Source of the DNA: an uncultured Porphyromonas sp.
GTDB taxonomy: Bacteria; Bacteroidota; Bacteroidia; Bacteroidales; Porphyromonadaceae
Reading direction: 5' to 3'
Assembly: GCA_945875135.1 (NCBI GenBank)
Contig: CAMCJO010000083.1
Location: 1-8,404, forward strand
Length of the DNA: 8,404 bases
Of the stretch, positions 1 to 8,404 are shown piece after piece. The stretch's first letter is position 1, and every line of letters begins with the position of its first letter. Under the pieces are notes generated by a model, which worked only from the letters and a program-made list of their open reading frames with translations, did no database searches and was not told the DNA's origin. The position numbers were made by a program, and so were the translations under genes.

Positions 1-3000
1 CATCTCATTGGTAAAGTAGTCTCCCGTCAGCTCATCGTCTACAAGTAGTGTACGTATGCTACCATCCTCCATGGTGTACTTAACATCGTCCTCTCCGCAG
101 ATGTCGGAAGATACTCCTGACTCCTTTTTGTGGAGTTCCTTCGAATTGACGAGACCCTTTGCTACTTCGGCTTTGTTGTCTACAGCGATCTCCTCACGAT
201 AGGACACTTGCAGCTCCTTGTCTATGACACACCTTACGCCTGCATTGAGACATGATCCGTAATACTCGTTGGTGAGCCTGTTGCCTGCAGAGTTTTTCAA
301 CCAATGGAAGAGACGTCCGCCCTTACCAAAAGAGAGTACATCAACTCGTGAGACTTGGTCTAACTGCTCCACCTTGATAGTCTTACCTATTAGCATGCCA
401 GAGTAGAAAAGGAGTAGCCCAGTCACATAAGCAGGTATTGTGAAGACGGACTTGGCATTGTTGTCTATGGAGCGATAGAACTCATCATACTCCTCTTCCG
501 TTTGTAGCTGATCGAAGATGCTGTTGAGGAAGTAAGGAGCCTTCGAAGGCTCGCTTTGGAGAGCCTTGATGTTGCTCACATTGACATTGGTACGTCTCCC
601 CTCGTGAAAAGAGATCAGCGCCTCTCTAAACTCTTGGGACTTGATGACTGTGTTGAAGAAGACTCCTGCAGCCATTCGTACTGAGCTCTCTCTTAGGAGC
701 GATGCCCGGTTGCCGTTGTTGGGGTCTTTGCCTAGGATGAGTATGTCACTGGTGCTACCACCCACATCAATGCCTAGGAAAAGATTGTCTACATTGAGAC
801 CGAACTCCTGTGACAAGGCAAAGCTACAGACAGCCTCAGCCTCTGTCGTAAGTTGATCGCTAAGCTCGGGCTTCCGCTGATTAGAAATCGGCGTTAGCTT
901 GCACAAGTCCTCATAGATACGCTCTAGCTCTGTCCGGTCAGCGGGCATCATAGATCCTGGATAGCTCCAGACTAGCTTAGCAGGGCGAATCCTGTTTTTG
1001 TAGAGGTAAGCACATGCTTGGAGCCAAATGGTCTTAAGGAATGCACTCTTCTTGAGTAGCCCACGGTTATCGCTAAGCCACTTCATATTGTAGTGCAGGG
1101 TACCTGCTTGTGTCGTGATGGCAAAGCGATCCATCTTGCGAACCAATACGTTGGGACGATTGACGGGTACACCGCCTGCAATCTCTAAGGCCTCGTTGTG
1201 GGTGTTGTAGCGTGAGTCCTGCTCGTGTAGCCAAGACTTAATCTGACCATTGGTGGCGGGGTAGTTGGAGAAGAATAGTAGCTCGTTGTTTTCGGCTACA
1301 GCTTTGAGGTTGTTATTTTCCTTGCCTACGACTACTAAGCGGTAGTTCTCAAACTGTATCGGAGCTGGCTCTCTGTCGCCCTCATTGTAGAAGAGACACG
1401 TATTGTTGCTCCCGAAGTCTATACCGACCACAGCCTCTGTCTGTGGCGGTAAGGAGGTGCGATCCTCCACAATCTGTGGACGGAATATAAGGAATCCCGC
1501 ATGGCTTGGCTTCCCCATGTCCTTAACGTATGCTACGACGCCTCCTAGAGGCTTGTCTGTGCAGATGATGTTGTACTTGTGTAGATCCTCGCCTTCACCA
1601 GCAGGGTAGGTGATGAGCTTCTTGACATCTACTTGCTTAGGCTCGTCTACCTCAGCTTGGTAATCTCCTGTCCAAAAAGATCCGTTGATAGTCTTGACAA
1701 ACTTGTTTTGGACCTTAAAGATAGGCTCAAAGAGCTCCTGAGCATCAGCGGTGAACTCTGAGTAAAGGTAGTACTTGCTCCAATGCTCTGAGACGAAGTT
1801 AGGCCACATAATAACCTTGCCGAGGTCCGTCATCCAGTGGATGGCATACTCTCGCGTGTTGAGCGTGACGCGCTGACCATCCACCTTGACTGAGAGTGTG
1901 GCTGCTAGTTGCCCTGAGTCAGTGATCACGCCTGAGAGAGATACGTTGTCAGAGTCACTGTAGCCTAGCATGCCAGAAAGATCGTTTTTGAAGACATCTA
2001 CACCAGACTCCGATAAGGGGATCGTAAAGTAATAGTTCTTCTTAGACTGTAAGTCTTTTGTCTTTAAGTAGAAGACGGGTGCTTCTGATAATTTAGGACG
2101 GGCATCTTCGTCTTCTACCCAGCCGATGACAAATTTGTCATCGCTCAGTAGCTTTTGGATATCTCCGATAAGCTTATACTCACCGCCTCCTTCATTTGTA
2201 TAGGTAAAGGTGTAGTCGTCCAGCTTCAGATAAACAGGCACGTTGCTCTCAAAAAGCAAAGAAAATGGGCACTCTAGATTGGGGTAGGAGGCTATAGGAC
2301 CTCTGTCCCTCAGGTTGCTCCCTCTCTGACGTAGCTCCTCCTCCCACAAGCGGCTCATCTGCTTGAAACCATTGATCTCCTCGTGAGGCTTAGATCCTCG
2401 CTGAGAGTTGATCTTCTCTTCAAAAGCTCTCAGGTTGCTGTTGAGGTTCTTGACAAAGAGATATAGCTTCTGCAGATGGTCTGGAGATAAATAGGGATCT
2501 GGACTCTCAAATCTCCCGCCTCGGTACCAGCTTATGTCGCTAGCCTCAGGCAGATGGTCATACTCCACACCCGTGAATACTCCTGTCATCGGGGAGGTTC
2601 CTCCGACCAAGCAGTCTCGATAGTAGATCAACTGTATGAAAGGCTGCGTATCTGGTTCTGTAGCTAGCTTGTCTTGGTTGCTCCAGAGGTCTCGGTCGTC
2701 AAAGAGCATACGCCCGAAGGATGATGCAATGCCATAAGCCTGACCATTGACATCCATCTCTATAGGATTAGAAAAGCGGATTCGGTCTGGATACAAAGCT
2801 ATCACAGCTAGTAGTCCCTTCCACTCATCATACAGCATCTCATAGAATTGCTGTAGTCCCGAGCTGTCGATGTTTGGATCGGGTGTGGCGAGGGTATTCA
2901 GAGCAAACTTAAAGAGCTTAGCACGAGCCCAGGGTGTGGGGATTCCTGAGATTAGTGTGTTTAGTTTGTCTGCCGTGAGGTCATCAAGGATTTTGCCCGT

Positions 3001-3105
3001 TTCGATGCCTTGTATGTATGATACGGGCATATTGAGTTCGTTCCACTCTCCTGGGGTACCCGTCGTTAGGTTGGTATAACTCTTTATCAGTAACGCTTTA
3101 GACAT
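1..3105 (-). CDS. Large actin/Hsp70-fold ATPase with novel N-terminal region (partial, C-terminus outside window)
   Basis: The frame opens at ATG 3105, 16 bases after the tubulin-like stop, and stays open for 1035 codons to the window edge. The C-terminal half has the actin/Hsp70 ATPase motifs in order: phosphate 1 VVGIDFGSNNT (559-569, D563); a strand VWSYPGS (712-718) like the Hsp70 VPA strand; connect 1 TEAEAVCSFAL (754-764); phosphate 2 GIDVGGSTSD (778-787, D780); a degenerate adenosine motif VLSFGKGGRL (923-932); and a connect-2-like KAEVAKGLV (978-986). These suggest ATP binding and probably hydrolysis. Residues 1 to about 555 match no family I recognise. They look mixed helical and beta-rich, with a Gly-rich VGGTSPMTGVFTG (167-179) and a charged helical stretch near 210-265. 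No signal peptide or membrane segment is seen, so it should be cytoplasmic. Normal DnaK has its ATPase at the N-terminus and is about 600-640 residues, so this is not DnaK. Chaperone-like or filament-forming roles are both possible. Confidence 0.88.
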   Translation of the reverse strand, partial: MSKALLIKSYTNLTTGTPGEWNELNMPVSYIQGIETGKILDDLTADKLNTLISGIPTPWARAKLFKFALNTLATPDPNIDSSGLQQFYEMLYDEWKGLLAVIALYPDRIRFSNPIEMDVNGQAYGIASSFGRMLFDDRDLWSNQDKLATEPDTQPFIQLIYYRDCLVGGTSPMTGVFTGVEYDHLPEASDISWYRGGRFESPDPYLSPDHLQKLYLFVKNLNSNLRAFEEKINSQRGSKPHEEINGFKQMSRLWEEELRQRGSNLRDRGPIASYPNLECPFSLLFESNVPVYLKLDDYTFTYTNEGGGEYKLIGDIQKLLSDDKFVIGWVEDEDARPKLSEAPVFYLKTKDLQSKKNYYFTIPLSESGVDVFKNDLSGMLGYSDSDNVSLSGVITDSGQLAATLSVKVDGQRVTLNTREYAIHWMTDLGKVIMWPNFVSEHWSKYYLYSEFTADAQELFEPIFKVQNKFVKTINGSFWTGDYQAEVDEPKQVDVKKLITYPAGEGEDLHKYNIICTDKPLGGVVAYVKDMGKPSHAGFLIFRPQIVEDRTSLPPQTEAVVGIDFGSNNTCLFYNEGDREPAPIQFENYRLVVVGKENNNLKAVAENNELLFFSNYPATNGQIKSWLHEQDSRYNTHNEALEIAGGVPVNRPNVLVRKMDRFAITTQAGTLHYNMKWLSDNRGLLKKSAFLKTIWLQACAYLYKNRIRPAKLVWSYPGSMMPADRTELERIYEDLCKLTPISNQRKPELSDQLTTEAEAVCSFALSQEFGLNVDNLFLGIDVGGSTSDILILGKDPNNGNRASLLRESSVRMAAGVFFNTVIKSQEFREALISFHEGRRTNVNVSNIKALQSEPSKAPYFLNSIFDQLQTEEEYDEFYRSIDNNAKSVFTIPAYVTGLLLFYSGMLIGKTIKVEQLDQVSRVDVLSFGKGGRLFHWLKNSAGNRLTNEYYGSCLNAGVRCVIDKELQVSYREEIAVDNKAEVAKGLVNSKELHKKESGVSSDICGEDDVKYTMEDGSIRTLLVDDELTGDYFTNEM

Positions 3106-3121
3106 AGTTGTATCCGATGTG

Positions 3122-4744
3122 TCAGTTGAACTTATATAGCTTGGCTAGCGTGTCAAAGATGAGCTTGTAGAGTTGCTCCCCTTTGTTGCTGATTTGATTC
3201 CACGCTTGCTTTTGGGCGTCATCTTGTACGCTGATAAGCGTCTCCTTGAAGGGGTCAAACTTTGACTTATTAAGAAGTGTCCCCGTCTTAGAGTACTTAT
3301 TGTCCTTACCTACACCCTCATTACGATAGAGCTTATTGTTCCAATCGTACTTCATAAGCTCTCTAAAGCTAGTCGGTGAAAACAAAGCTGCATGAAATAA
3401 GAATGTGTCTCCACCACCTGCAGATCTATGGAGCTGACGTAGCCATCCTTCTTGTAGGGTGTCACCGACTGCTTTGACGAAGAATAGATTGAAATAGTTG
3501 CGTAGGTTTGTGACTTGCGTTACATCCATCTCGGTGAACTCTTGAATCTCTTTTTGATCTCCAGAGCGTACACTCTCGACGAAGTTGTCCTCGCCGTTGC
3601 AGAAGAGCGAAAAGGCGATGAGCATGCCAAACCTTTGAGCAAACTCTTTAGCCATATCCTTGCCTACGAAGTCTTGAAAGTCTAGCTTTCCTGTATCGCT
3701 GATAGCTCGATACAGGTAGTCCGTTTGATTCTGAGCCTTGTTGTCTCTGAGCTGGCTCTCGTCCATGCGATAGAAGCTGAGAGCGGCACACGCTGCTAGT
3801 AACTCGATGTAGTGCGAGTCGTTCTTCTGTTGCTCTCCACCTGTGATGGTCTCAGTAATCCTGTCAGACTGCTTCTGCATAGGATCCCAGTCTAATCCGC
3901 TCGTGCCAAGCATATAGAACTTCTGGTAGGTGCTTGCGACAGTCTTGTCATCGTTGTAAAACATCATAGCGACCTGCGAGTTTAGTGCAAACTTATCACT
4001 CGTCGCGATGACCTTCTGATTGCTGAGTTCACTACCTGTGGGAGCCTTGAAGGTAAAGTAAGCTGTCAGTAGTGTAGAGCCAAAGTAAGCGTTGCTCAGT
4101 ACGTTTGCGACGCCATTGCTCATGATGCCCGCAGCTCGAGATATCGCTTGGGGGATAATAGGAATAGAGGAGGCGCCCGTACCACCAAAGACAGAGCCTA
4201 AGATGAAGACTCGGGGCTGACCATTTTGAGCAGCAGTCGTTAGTCTGCCCAGAAAACGCTTTAAGTCGTTGTCTCGAGGAGACTGAGCAGCCTCTATGAT
4301 AGAGTGGTACATCATCATAGAGCCTAGGTGTGTCTGGGCTCTATAGCCATGACGCAGGTTGAAGTTTTGCACATTGTTAGAGAAGACAAGGTCTGCTAGA
4401 TCAGCCTCCTCACGATTGTGATAGTGCGTGTCATCATATCCGAAGACAGCTCTAAAGGTACTCTTCTGCTCATAGTTGGGACTAAACTCGTAGTACTTCA
4501 AGTTAGCAGAGAAGAAGGTGTTAGACAGAGCTACTCTATCAGCCTCTTTGCTCCCTTTGGCATTACAGTAAGCCTCTTTGACCTCTTTGAGTCTAGAGAA
4601 GTTGCCATTGTTCTTGTCCGTGTCTAGAGCGAGTAGATGTATCTCTGTATCGTCAAACATCCCCATAGCACAGAGGTGTATCAGAGACTCGATGCAGCGC
4701 ATCCCTGTACCTCCGATCCCTAAAACAAAAAATGGTGTAGGCAT
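3122..4744 (-). CDS. Divergent tubulin/FtsZ-superfamily protein
   Basis: This 540-residue protein has the nucleotide-binding signatures of the tubulin/FtsZ superfamily. Residues 5-12 form a strand leading into GIGGTGM (9-15), the T1 loop equivalent of FtsZ GxGGxG. LLALDTD (37-43) matches the second strand, where FtsZ has a similar NTD. GSVFGGTGASS (183-193) is the tubulin signature T4 loop (GGGTGTG in FtsZ), which binds the GTP phosphates. A possible T7 catalytic loop is LDFQDF (354-359), which has the DFxD spacing of FtsZ, but it lies farther from T4 than in FtsZ, so large insertions would be needed. At 540 residues it is much longer than FtsZ and lacks a typical FtsZ C-terminal peptide; it is not the cell-division FtsZ. 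It most resembles the tubulin-like families found outside division clusters. The ATG start lies directly before the first strand of the fold, and the gene begins 12 bases after the membrane-protein gene. GTP use and polymerisation are inferred. Confidence 0.87.
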   Translation of the reverse strand: MPTPFFVLGIGGTGMRCIESLIHLCAMGMFDDTEIHLLALDTDKNNGNFSRLKEVKEAYCNAKGSKEADRVALSNTFFSANLKYYEFSPNYEQKSTFRAVFGYDDTHYHNREEADLADLVFSNNVQNFNLRHGYRAQTHLGSMMMYHSIIEAAQSPRDNDLKRFLGRLTTAAQNGQPRVFILGSVFGGTGASSIPIIPQAISRAAGIMSNGVANVLSNAYFGSTLLTAYFTFKAPTGSELSNQKVIATSDKFALNSQVAMMFYNDDKTVASTYQKFYMLGTSGLDWDPMQKQSDRITETITGGEQQKNDSHYIELLAACAALSFYRMDESQLRDNKAQNQTDYLYRAISDTGKLDFQDFVGKDMAKEFAQRFGMLIAFSLFCNGEDNFVESVRSGDQKEIQEFTEMDVTQVTNLRNYFNLFFVKAVGDTLQEGWLRQLHRSAGGGDTFLFHAALFSPTSFRELMKYDWNNKLYRNEGVGKDNKYSKTGTLLNKSKFDPFKETLISVQDDAQKQAWNQISNKGEQLYKLIFDTLAKLYKFN

Positions 4745-4756
4745 AGCTATCTGTGA

Positions 4757-5146
4757 TTACTTCTTTTCTTTACCAAGGATTGAACCAAACTTCGAGCGAC
4801 GGAAGGCAAACATAAGTACCACCCCGACGACTAAATAGATACCTAGATTGATCCCTACGCATTTGAGGTTGCAAGCTGCAAACATATTCTGGAGACCTAC
4901 ATTCTTTATGTAGTTCATCACTACTAGGTCGTTGTACATCCAGAATCCCAGGACAGCAACGGCTCCAATGACAAGATACACGATGCGACGCTTAATATAA
5001 GAGCGGTCATTGCCTCCCTCCCACGGGATCAGATAAGAGGAGATAAGCCATGCCAGGGCTAGAGCTATGAGACTCACCACGACCGCATAGATCATGGTGC
5101 TATTCATCAACTGATTCAGTTGGTTGACGTTAGTTACTGGTGTCAT
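4757..5146 (-). CDS. Small inner-membrane protein with three transmembrane segments
   Basis: This is a 129-residue protein of unknown family. It has three hydrophobic stretches long enough to cross the membrane: about residues 18-40, 54-71 and 97-115. The segment between the first two contains KRR (52-54). The C-terminal tail is strongly basic (RRSKF at 116-120, GKEKK at 125-129). By the positive-inside rule, the 41-53 loop and the C-terminus should be cytoplasmic. The segment between helices 2 and 3 (about 72-96) should then be periplasmic, as should the polar N-terminus. That periplasmic loop holds two cysteines spaced C-x3-C (C92, C96), which could form a disulphide. The gene sits 22 bases after the lipoprotein gene and 12 bases before the tubulin-like gene, so it is almost certainly co-transcribed. 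A membrane anchor or link between the cytoplasmic NTPases and the lipoprotein is a reasonable inference. No catalytic motif is visible. Confidence 0.85.
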   Translation of the reverse strand: MTPVTNVNQLNQLMNSTMIYAVVVSLIALALAWLISSYLIPWEGGNDRSYIKRRIVYLVIGAVAVLGFWMYNDLVVMNYIKNVGLQNMFAACNLKCVGINLGIYLVVGVVLMFAFRRSKFGSILGKEKK

Positions 5147-5168
5147 AAGTATGTGTTGGTTTGAGTTA

Positions 5169-6524
5169 TTATCGTTGGTTTGCTTTCACATAGATGGTGT
5201 AGATAGGGCAAGACTTCATCTGGGCAATGATGTCGGGGTCAGCTAGGCACTGCTCTATACTAGATACGATAGAGACGTTTTGAGAGCCAGGCATATCTAT
5301 ACTGTCGAATGAAAACATTCCCTTGTATTGATCCTCCAGCTCTACGTCTGCAACGCTGAGCCTAATCATAAAGTAGTTAAAAGGACTCCCATCCAGGGCT
5401 GATGCGGGGTTGTAATACTCCGTATCAAAGTGAAGGTTGATTACAGAGTCGTCGCGCCAAGCCTTATCGTCTATCTTGACAAAGTGGTCACATTCGCTAG
5501 ATGTGGTCTGCTCTTCGGGAGGCGTTGCAGCCTCTCTGCTGTTGTAGTAGTCGGTGTAAGCTTGATTGATATTGTAGACTGTCGCTTTAATCTCCGTGAT
5601 ATGACAGCCTCCGAAGCTACTCTTATCTAGATGCAGACCTGACGTGAAGGGGATCCCCTCGGGGAGGGCGTCCCCAGTCTCAGGATCTATAGCATTGACG
5701 AGTAGAGGCTCTATGCCATTCTTCCAGTCTATCTCCCAGTCCTGTATCTCATAGGATCCGCCTGGGGTGGCTTTAGCACTCAGTATGGAGTGAGGCGAAG
5801 AGGTCTGCCCCCCCTCTGTGTAGAGTGCTGGGTGATCTGCAGATAGATGAAAGAGCTGTACGCCATCGTATTGGCTTCTATCGACTGTCTGTTTGATACG
5901 TTCGTAGATATTCCCTGCGAGACGGTTGTCAGTAAAGATGAAGTAAAAGCGTTTCTTCTGATAGGGCTCACCCTTGTACACCTCTTCGTAAGGCTCTATA
6001 TAGATGTAGATGTCGTGCCCCCTTTTGAGCCAAGTCTTAAACGCTTCTGCCATATAGGGGTTGTTGATATTCCCTAGTGCTATCGAAGGCTGAAAGTACT
6101 CTCCATCGGTCAGCAGCACTCCTTCGGTATTGCCTTGAGCTATGCGCTCTGCAGCTGTTTTGATGTCTGCATAGTTGACCTCGCTCACACTGCGTAGTAG
6201 TAAGAAGGTCGAGTCGGCTGAGTGCTCCTCTATGGTACTGCCCTTGATGGCAAAGAAGCTTTTTGCCGCATTTGTCCAAGAGGGCACGAGAGCTTGAAAG
6301 AAGGGCGAGTTTTGCCCTAGAGCGATACAGGTGGAGTAATCTACATAGAGTGCCAGCTGATCGGGGACGATGGCATCAATCTTCTCACGATAGTAGGTGT
6401 CGTGAAAGTCTGGAAGATACTTCGTGTCAGGAGCTGTAGGTACCTTATTACTACAAGATACGAGCTGTAAGAGAGCATAGCTTGCTAGGGTGATAGTAAG
6501 CAGACGTGCTGAAATCTTGTTCAT
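5169..6524 (-). CDS. Lipoprotein with a probable degenerate vWA-like domain
   Basis: This predicted 451-residue envelope lipoprotein has no recognised name. Residues 1-24 are a type II signal peptide: positive residues K3 and R7, a hydrophobic core, and a lipobox ending LVSC with the lipidated Cys at 24. The residues after it (SNKVP) lack the acidic surface-export signal reported in some Bacteroidota, so a periplasm-facing location is more likely than the cell surface. About residues 57-180 look like a von Willebrand A fold. A hydrophobic strand runs into D62-x-S64-x-C66, resembling the metal-binding DxSxS motif with Cys in the last position. Later, GVLLTDGE (135-142) has the classic vWA strand ending in Thr-Asp. 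An amphipathic segment (about 158-170) and another strand follow. Residues 250-451 seem beta-rich and are unassigned. It is the first gene of the compact set and ends 22 bases before the membrane protein. The lipoprotein call is strong; the vWA call rests on motif reading. Confidence 0.85.
   Translation of the reverse strand: MNKISARLLTITLASYALLQLVSCSNKVPTAPDTKYLPDFHDTYYREKIDAIVPDQLALYVDYSTCIALGQNSPFFQALVPSWTNAAKSFFAIKGSTIEEHSADSTFLLLRSVSEVNYADIKTAAERIAQGNTEGVLLTDGEYFQPSIALGNINNPYMAEAFKTWLKRGHDIYIYIEPYEEVYKGEPYQKKRFYFIFTDNRLAGNIYERIKQTVDRSQYDGVQLFHLSADHPALYTEGGQTSSPHSILSAKATPGGSYEIQDWEIDWKNGIEPLLVNAIDPETGDALPEGIPFTSGLHLDKSSFGGCHITEIKATVYNINQAYTDYYNSREAATPPEEQTTSSECDHFVKIDDKAWRDDSVINLHFDTEYYNPASALDGSPFNYFMIRLSVADVELEDQYKGMFSFDSIDMPGSQNVSIVSSIEQCLADPDIIAQMKSCPIYTIYVKANQR
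5808..5814 (-). repeat. Homopolymer tract of seven G (coding strand) in the lipoprotein gene
   Basis: Seven consecutive C on the + strand read as G7 on the coding strand, within codons for E237-G238-G239-Q240 of the lipoprotein. The frame is intact in this copy. Gain or loss of one base would shift the frame near residue 239 and remove the C-terminal half. The tract is at the short end for phase variation. Confidence 0.5.
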
Positions 6525-6577: not shown

Positions 6578-8404
6578 TTACTTCTTAGCCCATCGGAAGA
6601 TCTCTCCACACCATAGCACTAAGCTCGTAGAGAGTACGATGATCGCCCAGCTGACGAGATCTAGTGGCACTACACGAAACATCTCTCCACCAAACGTCGT
6701 GATAACCACCTGCCCTATAACGATAATACTCGCAATGAATAGGAAGTTACGACAATGCTTGAGATCTGCTAGTGCAGACTTGCCTGAGTGAAAGGCCTTG
6801 GCGTTGAACATATTCCAAAACTGAAGGAATACAAAGAAGCAGAAGAAAACAGTTAGCTCATAGCCACTGAATGCACCCTGGTTAAAGTCAAAGAAGTGAC
6901 GTCCTAGCTCTGCAAAGCTAAACTCCGTCAGAGTAGTCACCTCCGCATGCTTGAAGTACTGCATGACAGCAAAGAGTAGCACGACGAAAAAGCTCCCGAG
7001 ACCAAAAATACGCTTGGCCATAGCCGGCGATATGATATTGTCCGTTTGCTTGCGAGGCTTGCTCTTCATGACTCTACTACTAGGAGGTAGTGAGGCGAGA
7101 GCTAGCGCAGCAAAGGTGTCCATGATCAAGTTGACCCAAAGCATCTGTGTCACTGTCAGAGGGCTTTCGGTATCTAGGAATGCACCTATCAGCACAATGA
7201 TACAGGCTGCGACATTGATCGTCATCTGGAAGAGGATGAAGCGCTGTATGTTGAGATACAGAGAGCGTCCCCACATTACCGCCTTAGAGATAGAGGCGAA
7301 GGAGTTGTCCAGGATTGTGATATCACTCGCCTCCTTAGCTACAGAGGTGCCGTCTCCCATAGAGAGACCTACGTGAGCACGATTGAGAGCGGGCGCATCG
7401 TTGGTACCATCACCAGTGACAGCGACTACCTCTCCCTGCTCCTGTAGGAGTCTTACGAGGCGCTCCTTATCCATAGGACGAGCACGGCTCACGATTCGCA
7501 CATCCTGTACACGGGTAGCGAGCTCCTCGTCACTCATCTGAGCAAACTCAGCTCCTGTGATGATGTTTCTCTCGGTACAAGAGTCGTCCCACAGTCCGAT
7601 CTGACGTCCTATCTCTTTAGCGGTACCAGAGGTATCCCCCGTGACGATCTTCACCTGAATGCCAGCATCTGTACAGCTCTGGATGGCTGCTGGGACTTCG
7701 GGACGGATAGGATCACTAATGCCTACGACACCCATAAAGGTGAGTGCGTCAACGGCTAGCTTGTTATCTACAAATGGGGTGGCACCATCAAGAGGTGCGT
7801 AAGCAAAACCTATGGTGCGCATAGCACGAGACTGATAGCTCAGCAGTTGATCTTCGTAGTGGCTGAGAGTAGCTGTGCTGAGAGAGCAGTGCTGCATAAC
7901 GATCTCTGGAGCTCCCTTAATCAATAGGTGATCTACTCCATCGATCTGGATGACAGATGCCATATACTTGCGCTCAGTAGAGAAGGGTAGCTGAGATACT
8001 AGAGGGTAGTCCTGACGTAGCTCTTTGTAGTCTACCCCCTGTTGATGTAGCCATAGGAGCAGTGCCCCCTCTGTAGGATTACCTAGTACGGTGGGGTGCT
8101 CGCTGTCATGCTGGTCAAGGTGTGCCGTAGAGTTGACAGCCATAGAGAGGTGGACTAGTTGGGGGGATGTGCCCTCTACAAAGGAGGAGTCTGTGACGGT
8201 CATTCTGTTTTGTGTCAGAGTGCCAGTCTTGTCGGTGCATATTACCGTTGCTGCGCCCATAGTCTCACAGGCATGCATACGCCGTACGAGGTTGTTGGTC
8301 TTCATCATACTACGCATACTGTAGGCTAGACTGAGGGTCACGCTCATAGGTAGCCCCTCTGGAACTGCAACGACAATCACCGTGACAGCTATCATCACTT
8401 TCTG
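6578..8404 (-). CDS. Calcium-translocating P-type ATPase, PMCA type (partial, N-terminus outside window)
   Basis: This is the C-terminal part of a P-type ATPase that pumps Ca2+ out across the cytoplasmic membrane using ATP. The frame is open to the window edge (first codons Q, K), so about 300 N-terminal residues, including the actuator domain, are missing; 608 residues are visible. Counting from position 8404, the M4 motif PEGLP is at 15-19, the phosphorylated Asp is D58 in DKTGTLT, KGAPE of the nucleotide-binding domain is at 163-167, and the hinge motif TGDGTND is at 330-336. M6 carries NLIMD with N425 and D429, matching SERCA N796 and D800. M5 has N397 followed by Ala400 where SERCA has the site I Glu771. 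That pattern points to the single-site PMCA subfamily rather than SERCA. Six C-terminal membrane helices (M5 to M10) follow to a TAA stop. The next gene starts 53 bases downstream. The family call is firm; the transported ion is inferred from these residues. Confidence 0.96.
   Translation of the reverse strand, partial: QKVMIAVTVIVVAVPEGLPMSVTLSLAYSMRSMMKTNNLVRRMHACETMGAATVICTDKTGTLTQNRMTVTDSSFVEGTSPQLVHLSMAVNSTAHLDQHDSEHPTVLGNPTEGALLLWLHQQGVDYKELRQDYPLVSQLPFSTERKYMASVIQIDGVDHLLIKGAPEIVMQHCSLSTATLSHYEDQLLSYQSRAMRTIGFAYAPLDGATPFVDNKLAVDALTFMGVVGISDPIRPEVPAAIQSCTDAGIQVKIVTGDTSGTAKEIGRQIGLWDDSCTERNIITGAEFAQMSDEELATRVQDVRIVSRARPMDKERLVRLLQEQGEVVAVTGDGTNDAPALNRAHVGLSMGDGTSVAKEASDITILDNSFASISKAVMWGRSLYLNIQRFILFQMTINVAACIIVLIGAFLDTESPLTVTQMLWVNLIMDTFAALALASLPPSSRVMKSKPRKQTDNIISPAMAKRIFGLGSFFVVLLFAVMQYFKHAEVTTLTEFSFAELGRHFFDFNQGAFSGYELTVFFCFFVFLQFWNMFNAKAFHSGKSALADLKHCRNFLFIASIIVIGQVVITTFGGEMFRVVPLDLVSWAIIVLSTSLVLWCGEIFRWAKK

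Follow-up and report, generated by a model that had tools for sequence, protein, structure and literature searches.

A near-constant quartet of tubulin-like, actin-like, membrane and lipoprotein genes in Bacteroidota as a candidate envelope-anchored conflict machine

An 8,404-base stretch of DNA from an uncultured Porphyromonas sp. (contig CAMCJO010000083.1 of assembly GCA_945875135.1; hereafter the window) encodes a divergent tubulin-like protein and an actin/Hsp70-fold predicted ATPase side by side, preceded by a small membrane protein and an envelope lipoprotein. These four genes form a quartet that recurs, nearly constant, across Bacteroidota, accompanied by accessory modules that are exchanged between lineages. 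Tentatively, and at a little less than an even chance, we propose that the quartet is an envelope-anchored surveillance machine of the biological-conflict type that would form beneath the inner membrane once the envelope has been breached, by a phage for instance.

The quartet and its conservation

The window is the whole of contig C83 (G000:C83), one of the 305 contigs of a fragmented genome, and its genes and motifs, all on the reverse strand, are the following:

1..3105, reverse strand: predicted ATPase of the actin/Hsp70 fold, its N-terminal region long and its reading frame cut short where the contig ends; phosphate-1 motif at 1396-1425, phosphate-2 motif at 745-774, GKGGRLF at 307-327
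3122..4744, reverse strand: tubulin-like (FtsZ-like 1 / Tubulin_2) protein of 540 amino acids; T1-like loop at 4697-4720, GGTG loop at 4166-4186
4757..5146, reverse strand: small membrane protein of 129 amino acids with three predicted helices; conserved C-terminal tail SKFGSILGK at 4769-4795
5169..6524, reverse strand: envelope lipoprotein of 451 amino acids with a predicted vWA-like domain; lipobox LVSC at 6453-6464, VDYSTC at 6327-6344, LTDGE at 6099-6113
6578..8404, reverse strand: Ca2+-translocating P-type ATPase, its N-terminus cut by the contig end; DKTGT phosphorylation motif at 8219-8233

From the Ca2+ ATPase to the actin-like gene the intergenic gaps are 53, 22, 12 and 16 bases, and the last three agree with the initial annotation, which had described four genes spaced by 12-22 bases. 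That description omitted the Ca2+ ATPase gene, which lies directly upstream of the lipoprotein gene with its reading frame open at the other contig end, and also the truncation of the actin-like gene: the contig ends inside this reading frame, which is thus incomplete, with at least 1,035 amino acids in the window versus 1,127 in Porphyromonas uenonis 60-3.

Related loci were found by means of the tubulin-like protein, so that all counts are conditional on the tubulin-like gene, and the profiles used for locus annotation were trained on the mapped loci themselves. Nor are the loci all independent: the tubulin-like protein of P. uenonis 60-3 (L005) is 94% identical to that of the window, L024 and L028 are near-identical in parts, and misbinning is possible for L011 and L016, short contigs with the labels Eubacteriales and Clostridia. 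On this footing, 52 of 56 mapped loci have the actin-like gene as the next one downstream from the tubulin-like gene (36/39 in branch A, to which the window belongs, and 16/17 in branch B). All four members of the quartet occur in 38 of the 49 loci that extend 2.2 kb or more upstream (23/32 and 15/17, respectively); the four genes do co-occur in other genomes, as the initial annotation expected of a system. Profile comparison links the two branches (E 5e-34 for the tubulin-like and 1.5e-21 for the actin-like family). A first scan of genome contigs for the tubulin-like protein returned 24 loci, nearly all in records with Bacteroidota titles, and the operon is present in the records of Prevotella jejuni DSM 26989, Phocaeicola sartorii JCM 17136 and P. 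uenonis 60-3. That the gene order is an accident of assembly is ruled out by the 52 of 56 loci.

Genome-wide surveys gave a similar picture. At E <=0.001, the tubulin-like family was detected in 23 of 393 Bacteroidales genomes and the actin-like family in 13; strong tubulin-like matches (nearly full-length, E <1e-180) fell in the same 11 genomes as strong actin-like matches (E <1e-280), on different contigs in G072, G073 and G360. A further genome, G054, which is 70% complete, holds a partial tubulin-like match at a contig edge and no actin-like match. Inspection of the genomes of this order with weak tubulin-like matches covered nine of 11, leaving aside G210 and G320 together with the second-contig matches of G047, G164 and G274 and the partial match of G054. 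For branch B, strong tubulin-like (E <1e-100) and actin-like (E <1e-70, a cut of our own choosing) matches occurred in the same seven of 375 genomes of the phylum, one of which, G516, is cut by a contig end; the actin-like gene also adjoins the weaker branch-B tubulin-like matches of G609, G707 and G732. At E <=0.001 the branch-B actin-like search matched 257 of the 375 genomes; among the matches listed, the weak ones are mostly short, centred on the phosphate-2 region and situated in reading frames of about 300-500 amino acids, and they are uninformative about the actin-like family.

The lipoprotein family follows the tubulin-like gene as well. It was found in 10 of 11 searched Bacteroidales genomes with a branch-A tubulin-like gene (the window genome not being one of the 11), some of which have no intact operon, the single miss being G054. 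None of 19 Bacteroidales genomes without a tubulin-like gene, taken non-randomly from the top of the no-match list, contained it, a null result for which the 10 of 11 serve as the positive counterpart. In nine Bacteroidales genomes (L058-L062, L064-L067) the tubulin-actin pair is either together without the rest of the quartet (six loci) or its genes are apart (three loci), and the lipoprotein gene lies elsewhere in the genome or, in L060, near the tubulin-like gene. In L061, L062 and L064, three genomes of one family, a gene for a trypsin/PDZ (HtrA-like) protease is located one to two genes upstream of the pair; its domains were tested in L062.

The tubulin-like and actin-like proteins

Against the Pfam family PF13809 (Tubulin_2), the tubulin-like protein of the window scored 19.1 bits (E 8.5e-4), below the gathering cut-off of 27 bits. 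A relative of about 40% identity, in L028, clears this cut-off (28.7 versus 27 bits), and PF13809 is a precomputed domain in many of the 120 tubulin-like homologues listed. From these profiles, the window protein is assigned to the tubulin superfamily, as first annotated, the relationship being clearer at the level of the family. From the shared description we take PF13809 to be the FtsZl1 family, and through the PF13809 relatives the link to FtsZ-like 1 proteins that the initial annotation had drawn also stands.

In an alignment of 27 sequences, the segments GIGGTGMR and GGTGASS are invariant or nearly so. The GTP-binding loop of the window protein reads FGGTGASS; its GGTG core is invariant or almost so across the 27 sequences, and its flanks deviate from GGGTG(S/T)G, the signature loop given for FtsZ-like 1 proteins, which further possess an extended coiled coil and an alpha-helical C-terminal domain (PMC2875224). 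The window protein, at 540 amino acids, is also shorter than the first-described member from Halorhabdus, at 1051 (PMC2875224). A second motif, QxNxxHxxEL (window 3800-3826), is a consensus in the tubulin-like proteins of both branches, and in neither alignment do its Q, E and L vary. The motif may correspond to the T7 loop region of tubulin, for which the earlier authors gave no confident placement in FtsZ-like 1 (PMC2875224). Searches of PDB sequences with a single tubulin-like protein and with the family profile returned nothing significant.

For the actin-like protein, a nucleotide-binding fold of the actin/Hsp70 type is predicted and the phosphate-1, phosphate-2 and adenosine motifs are present, so that its initial assignment as a predicted ATPase of the actin/Hsp70 fold is upheld on the strength of modelling. 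Structural matches are limited to residues 555-1028, with little on the remainder. Among 18 actin-like members, HSP70, MreB and the other named actin-fold Pfam families gave no match over cut-off, the sole actin-fold listing at E <=10 being MreB-like_C in one member (E 0.29); PDB sequence searches with a single protein and with the family profile again yielded nothing significant. The actin-like protein of a Prevotella-labelled contig (L025:8178-12416) has 1412 amino acids. One of the 18 alignment members, probably this protein, contains a GYF_2 domain (E 1.6e-27); GYF domains are also described in GAP1-N2 systems (PMC7159879).

The lipoprotein and the membrane protein

The AlphaFold model of the lipoprotein (predicted local distance difference test, pLDDT, 88) places a vWA-like domain at residues of about 53-213, which aligned to chains of the vWA fold with VIA Z mostly of 5.4-6.2. 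Across 20 homologues, the D, S and C of DYSTC and the T, D and E of TDGE are invariant, the third position of the metal ion-dependent adhesion site being a cysteine. No vWA family of Pfam matched any lipoprotein alignment member over cut-off, and a PDB search with the family profile gave nothing significant.

The membrane protein is predicted from hydropathy to cross the membrane with three helices. Its short basic tail, SKFGSILGK, is conserved in an alignment of 17 homologues; the tail of the branch-B protein differs and often ends in SPF or TPF. Both kinds of C-terminal tail are candidate docking peptides.

Accessory modules around the quartet

In many branch-A relatives the operon continues with genes for a tetratricopeptide repeat (TPR) protein, for TerD-like proteins (one to three), for a membrane protein that spans the membrane once and bears a CW_7 repeat, for a small lipoprotein and often for the Ca2+ ATPase. 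The four-gene system of the initial annotation is accordingly conserved as a core, but the complete set is larger, comprising TPR, TerD-like and peptidoglycan-binding proteins and the Ca2+ ATPase, or other modules. TerD-like genes were found in 14 and CW_7 genes in 15 of the 39 branch-A loci; many of these loci do not extend far enough to reveal them. In 11 of 39, the window included, a Ca2+ ATPase of the window's cluster is encoded no more than 12 kb from the tubulin-like gene. The window's own pump matches the PMCA-type NCBIfam model TIGR01517 at 512 bits (cut-off 507.05), and the peptidoglycan-binding-type repeat CW_7 (PF08230) is present in the membrane protein of L007 at E 1.7e-12. TerD-like and pump genes look like accessories, since neither was detected in the 17 branch-B or the four Rikenellaceae-type loci, although the pair and the quartet are retained in most of these.

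No Pfam TerD match was obtained in 20 TerD-like members, and a PDB search with their family profile gave nothing significant. By tblastn a TerD-like protein matched, at E 3e-4 and over 87% of its length, a protein annotated as belonging to the TerD family, and, at E 5e-5, a Paenibacillus site that bears no annotation, with Pseudomonas TerD at E 3-5 among the matches listed; three of the 120 TerD-like homologues listed bear a TerD or tellurium-resistance name. An N-terminal motif, VxLKKKVTLRxK, occurs in 21 of 23 TerD-like and 12 of 16 CW_7 proteins and in no other protein of the mapped loci, the pattern having been drawn from these two families themselves. In the CW_7 protein this end is on the predicted cytoplasmic side, and the common motif suggests a docking contact between the two proteins.

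Other lineages carry other modules. In the Rikenellaceae-type loci (L024-L026 and L028; four of the 39 branch-A loci, many of them short), genes for a GTPase and GAP1 take the place of the TerD-type module; in L028, DO-GTPase2 (E 3.7e-10) and GAP1-N2 (E 1.7e-8) are both over their Pfam cut-offs, and homologues of both are found in the other three. No DO-GTPase or GAP1 was found in the 10 kb downstream of the L005 tubulin-like gene, a region before which the window contig ends. In branch B, a ZorA/ZorB-like pair follows the quartet in nine of 17 loci, and different neighbours are found at others. PADLOC models identified ZorB in four of four tested proteins (E 3.9e-8 to 1e-16) and ZorA, at E <1e-6, in two of five; both members of the pair in L075 were recognized (ZorB-like E 1e-16, ZorA-like E 1.7e-11). 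None of the 39 branch-A loci contains ZorA/ZorB, the window's own contig ending too early to show them. We infer, as the common thread, a near-constant quartet joined to a module that either contacts peptidoglycan or serves as a switch of the NTPase kind.

When the P. uenonis downstream region was compared with the window assembly, its start was found at the window contig end and its far flank on C132, and the genes between were not found. A short dispersed repeat (L005:15430-15870) lies in this region: 56 matches connect the P. uenonis region with many contigs of the window genome, most of them about 30-170 bases long and inside the repeat, which possibly caused the assembly to break there. 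Scans of the window for promoters and terminators showed no excess over shuffled sequences.

Distribution and mobility

The tubulin-like gene is present in three of 38 genomes of the window's family and, as noted, in 23 of 393 in the order. In L014, L015 and L018 the operon is immediately preceded by an integrase gene (PF00589 was tested in L015 and the others assigned by similarity). The same holds for L086, an IMG/VR contig found via two short exact-pattern scans, which carries the operon up to the CW_7 gene; relaxase-like and excisionase-like genes, named by eye, precede its integrase, and the contig looks like an integrative element. Patchiness and adjoining integrases together form the pattern of an accessory, transferable system. 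The other mapped operons have no integrase of that family within the available stretch, and no tRNA was found in the four integrase-bearing loci. A phage-borne operon has little support, there being no match in phage records. A gene near the operon in L027 (5849-7075) matches the PADLOC model mad3 (E 1.2e-28), and another nearby gene, in L007, matches PDC-M28B (E 4.7e-7).

A role as helper of a mobile element, in which the tubulin-like and actin-like proteins would serve its stability, partition or transfer as a pair resembling TubZ and ParM, would account for the four adjoining integrases and for the relaxase-like gene of L086. We regard it as very improbable, given the operons lacking such an integrase and the presence of a lipoprotein and a peptidoglycan binder with no obvious part in partition.

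Discussion

With the quartet proteins in their predicted folds and at their predicted places at the membrane, the simplest reading is a route from sensor to scaffold, from the envelope to the cytoplasm. The lipoprotein, together with the peptidoglycan-binding membrane protein in relatives, would read the state of the envelope, and the three-helix protein would relay the signal to the cytoplasm by way of its conserved tail. There, GTP and ATP may drive assembly of the tubulin-like and actin-like proteins into a switch or scaffold. In relatives, the N-terminal motif common to both would let TerD-like proteins dock on the peptidoglycan-bound protein; the TerD-like proteins would also respond to Ca2+, with resetting of the signal left to the Ca2+ pump. 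The output could be containment, dormancy or repair, with defence as our first choice of purpose; we infer it from the interchange of conflict-system modules, the adjoining integrases of four loci and the implication of ter operons in phage inhibition, TerD itself binding Ca2+ (PMC8123226).

Several observations weigh against this proposal. The nine Bacteroidales genomes with the pair only, or with its genes apart, look more like carriers of a resident function than of cargo. At E <=1e-5, 50,697 phage records gave no match and 72,556 plasmid records only distant cyanobacterial relatives. PADLOC had no match for the four window proteins and matched only two of ten nearby genes tested; for three ZorA-like proteins its best models were LmuB, DruC and LeoBC; and no nuclease, pore or other killing effector was recognized. 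The vWA fold of the lipoprotein is only moderately supported. The TerD, CW_7 and TPR genes are known from relatives only, as the window contig ends inside the actin-like gene, and TerD had no match in the rest of the window's assembly.

A housekeeping machine for membrane remodelling or envelope maintenance, in which NTPase filaments shape the inner membrane or anchor it to the wall, is possible but on the whole doubtful. Makarova and Koonin (2010) proposed membrane remodelling for FtsZ-like 1 proteins with vWA, GTPase and OmpA partners (PMC2875224), and the membrane, lipoprotein and peptidoglycan-binding-type partners seen here fit that theme, as do the separate yet co-occurring gene copies of some genomes. 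Such a role sits poorly with the patchy distribution, with the integrases beside the operon and with the swapping of conflict-type modules. A ter-type system for calcium or oxidative-metal stress, with the cytoskeletal pair as scaffold for TerD-like Ca2+ sensors and the pump, would draw on the TerD-like genes and Ca2+ ATPases of branch A and on the Ca2+ binding of TerD; it appears decidedly unlikely, as neither accessory was detected in the branch-B or Rikenellaceae-type loci. The initial annotation had named an envelope-anchored cytoskeletal, membrane-remodelling or conflict-related machine; of these the conflict reading has more circumstantial support than membrane remodelling, which has no direct support.

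The quartet resembles the FtsZ-like 1 system in a tubulin-superfamily protein akin to PF13809, in a predicted vWA-type envelope partner and in its membrane setting, and a Bacteroides caccae member appears in the Figure 1 legend of PMC2875224. What sets it apart is a partner of the actin/Hsp70 fold that is nearly always there, along with the small membrane protein; by term search, the main text of that paper mentions neither an actin-like or Hsp70-like partner of FtsZ-like 1 nor a small membrane protein. No P-loop GTPase or OmpA protein was recognized in the surroundings of the tubulin-like gene of L005, the closest relative of the window.

A second comparison is with the conflict class outlined in the overview of Kaur et al. 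(2020), which joins GTPases with tubulin homologues and HSP70 (PMC7159879). As in the DO-GTPase/GAP1-N2 systems of that study, a predicted vWA-like component and a membrane component are present here, with DO-GTPase and GAP1 themselves in the four Rikenellaceae-type relatives. The detailed section, however, treats tubulin and HSP70 as separate, non-overlapping themes and confines the tubulin theme to Firmicutes and Actinobacteria (PMC7159879), whereas tubulin-like and actin-like genes stand side by side here, in Bacteroidota. The initial claim of an undescribed system is therefore to be narrowed: as GTPase-centred systems with tubulin, HSP70 and vWA components have been known since 2020, the quartet falls inside a known conceptual kind, from which it is set apart by its side-by-side tubulin-actin pairing, its lineage and its modules. 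New are the near constancy of the quartet across Bacteroidota and the exchange of modules around it. A literature search lacking most subscription papers found no published description of the quartet, and, beyond the systems of Kaur et al., the literature searched held no other bacterial system with constant tubulin-like and actin/Hsp70-fold partners.

Two further systems share parts of the modules. The ZorA/ZorB-like pair of branch B recalls the Zorya motor, including its anchoring to peptidoglycan (PMC11890865), unlike branch A; the TerD-like copies and the Ca2+ link recall ter operons, in which the tubulin-actin core has no counterpart. A bolder form of the surveillance proposal, which we consider unlikely, is an immune machine in which an envelope sensor triggers co-assembly of the tubulin-like and actin-like proteins, powered by GTP and ATP, into a composite cytoskeleton at the site of entry, with Ca2+ (through TerD and the pump), a ZorAB-like motor or a GTPase-GAP1 switch as interchangeable drives, and which gut phages bearing TerD and Ca2+ ATPase would answer. 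Huge Bacteroides gut phages are described as encoding TerD as well as a P-type ATPase for Ca2+ (PMC12363816), the two sorts of accessory also seen here; any relation to the accessories of the operon may be coincidence. If the tubulin-like and actin-like proteins do work together, the pair would provide a tractable model for cooperation between the tubulin and actin folds outside eukaryotes, and would connect FtsZ-like 1 proteins with NTP-dependent conflict systems and with motors of the Zorya type.

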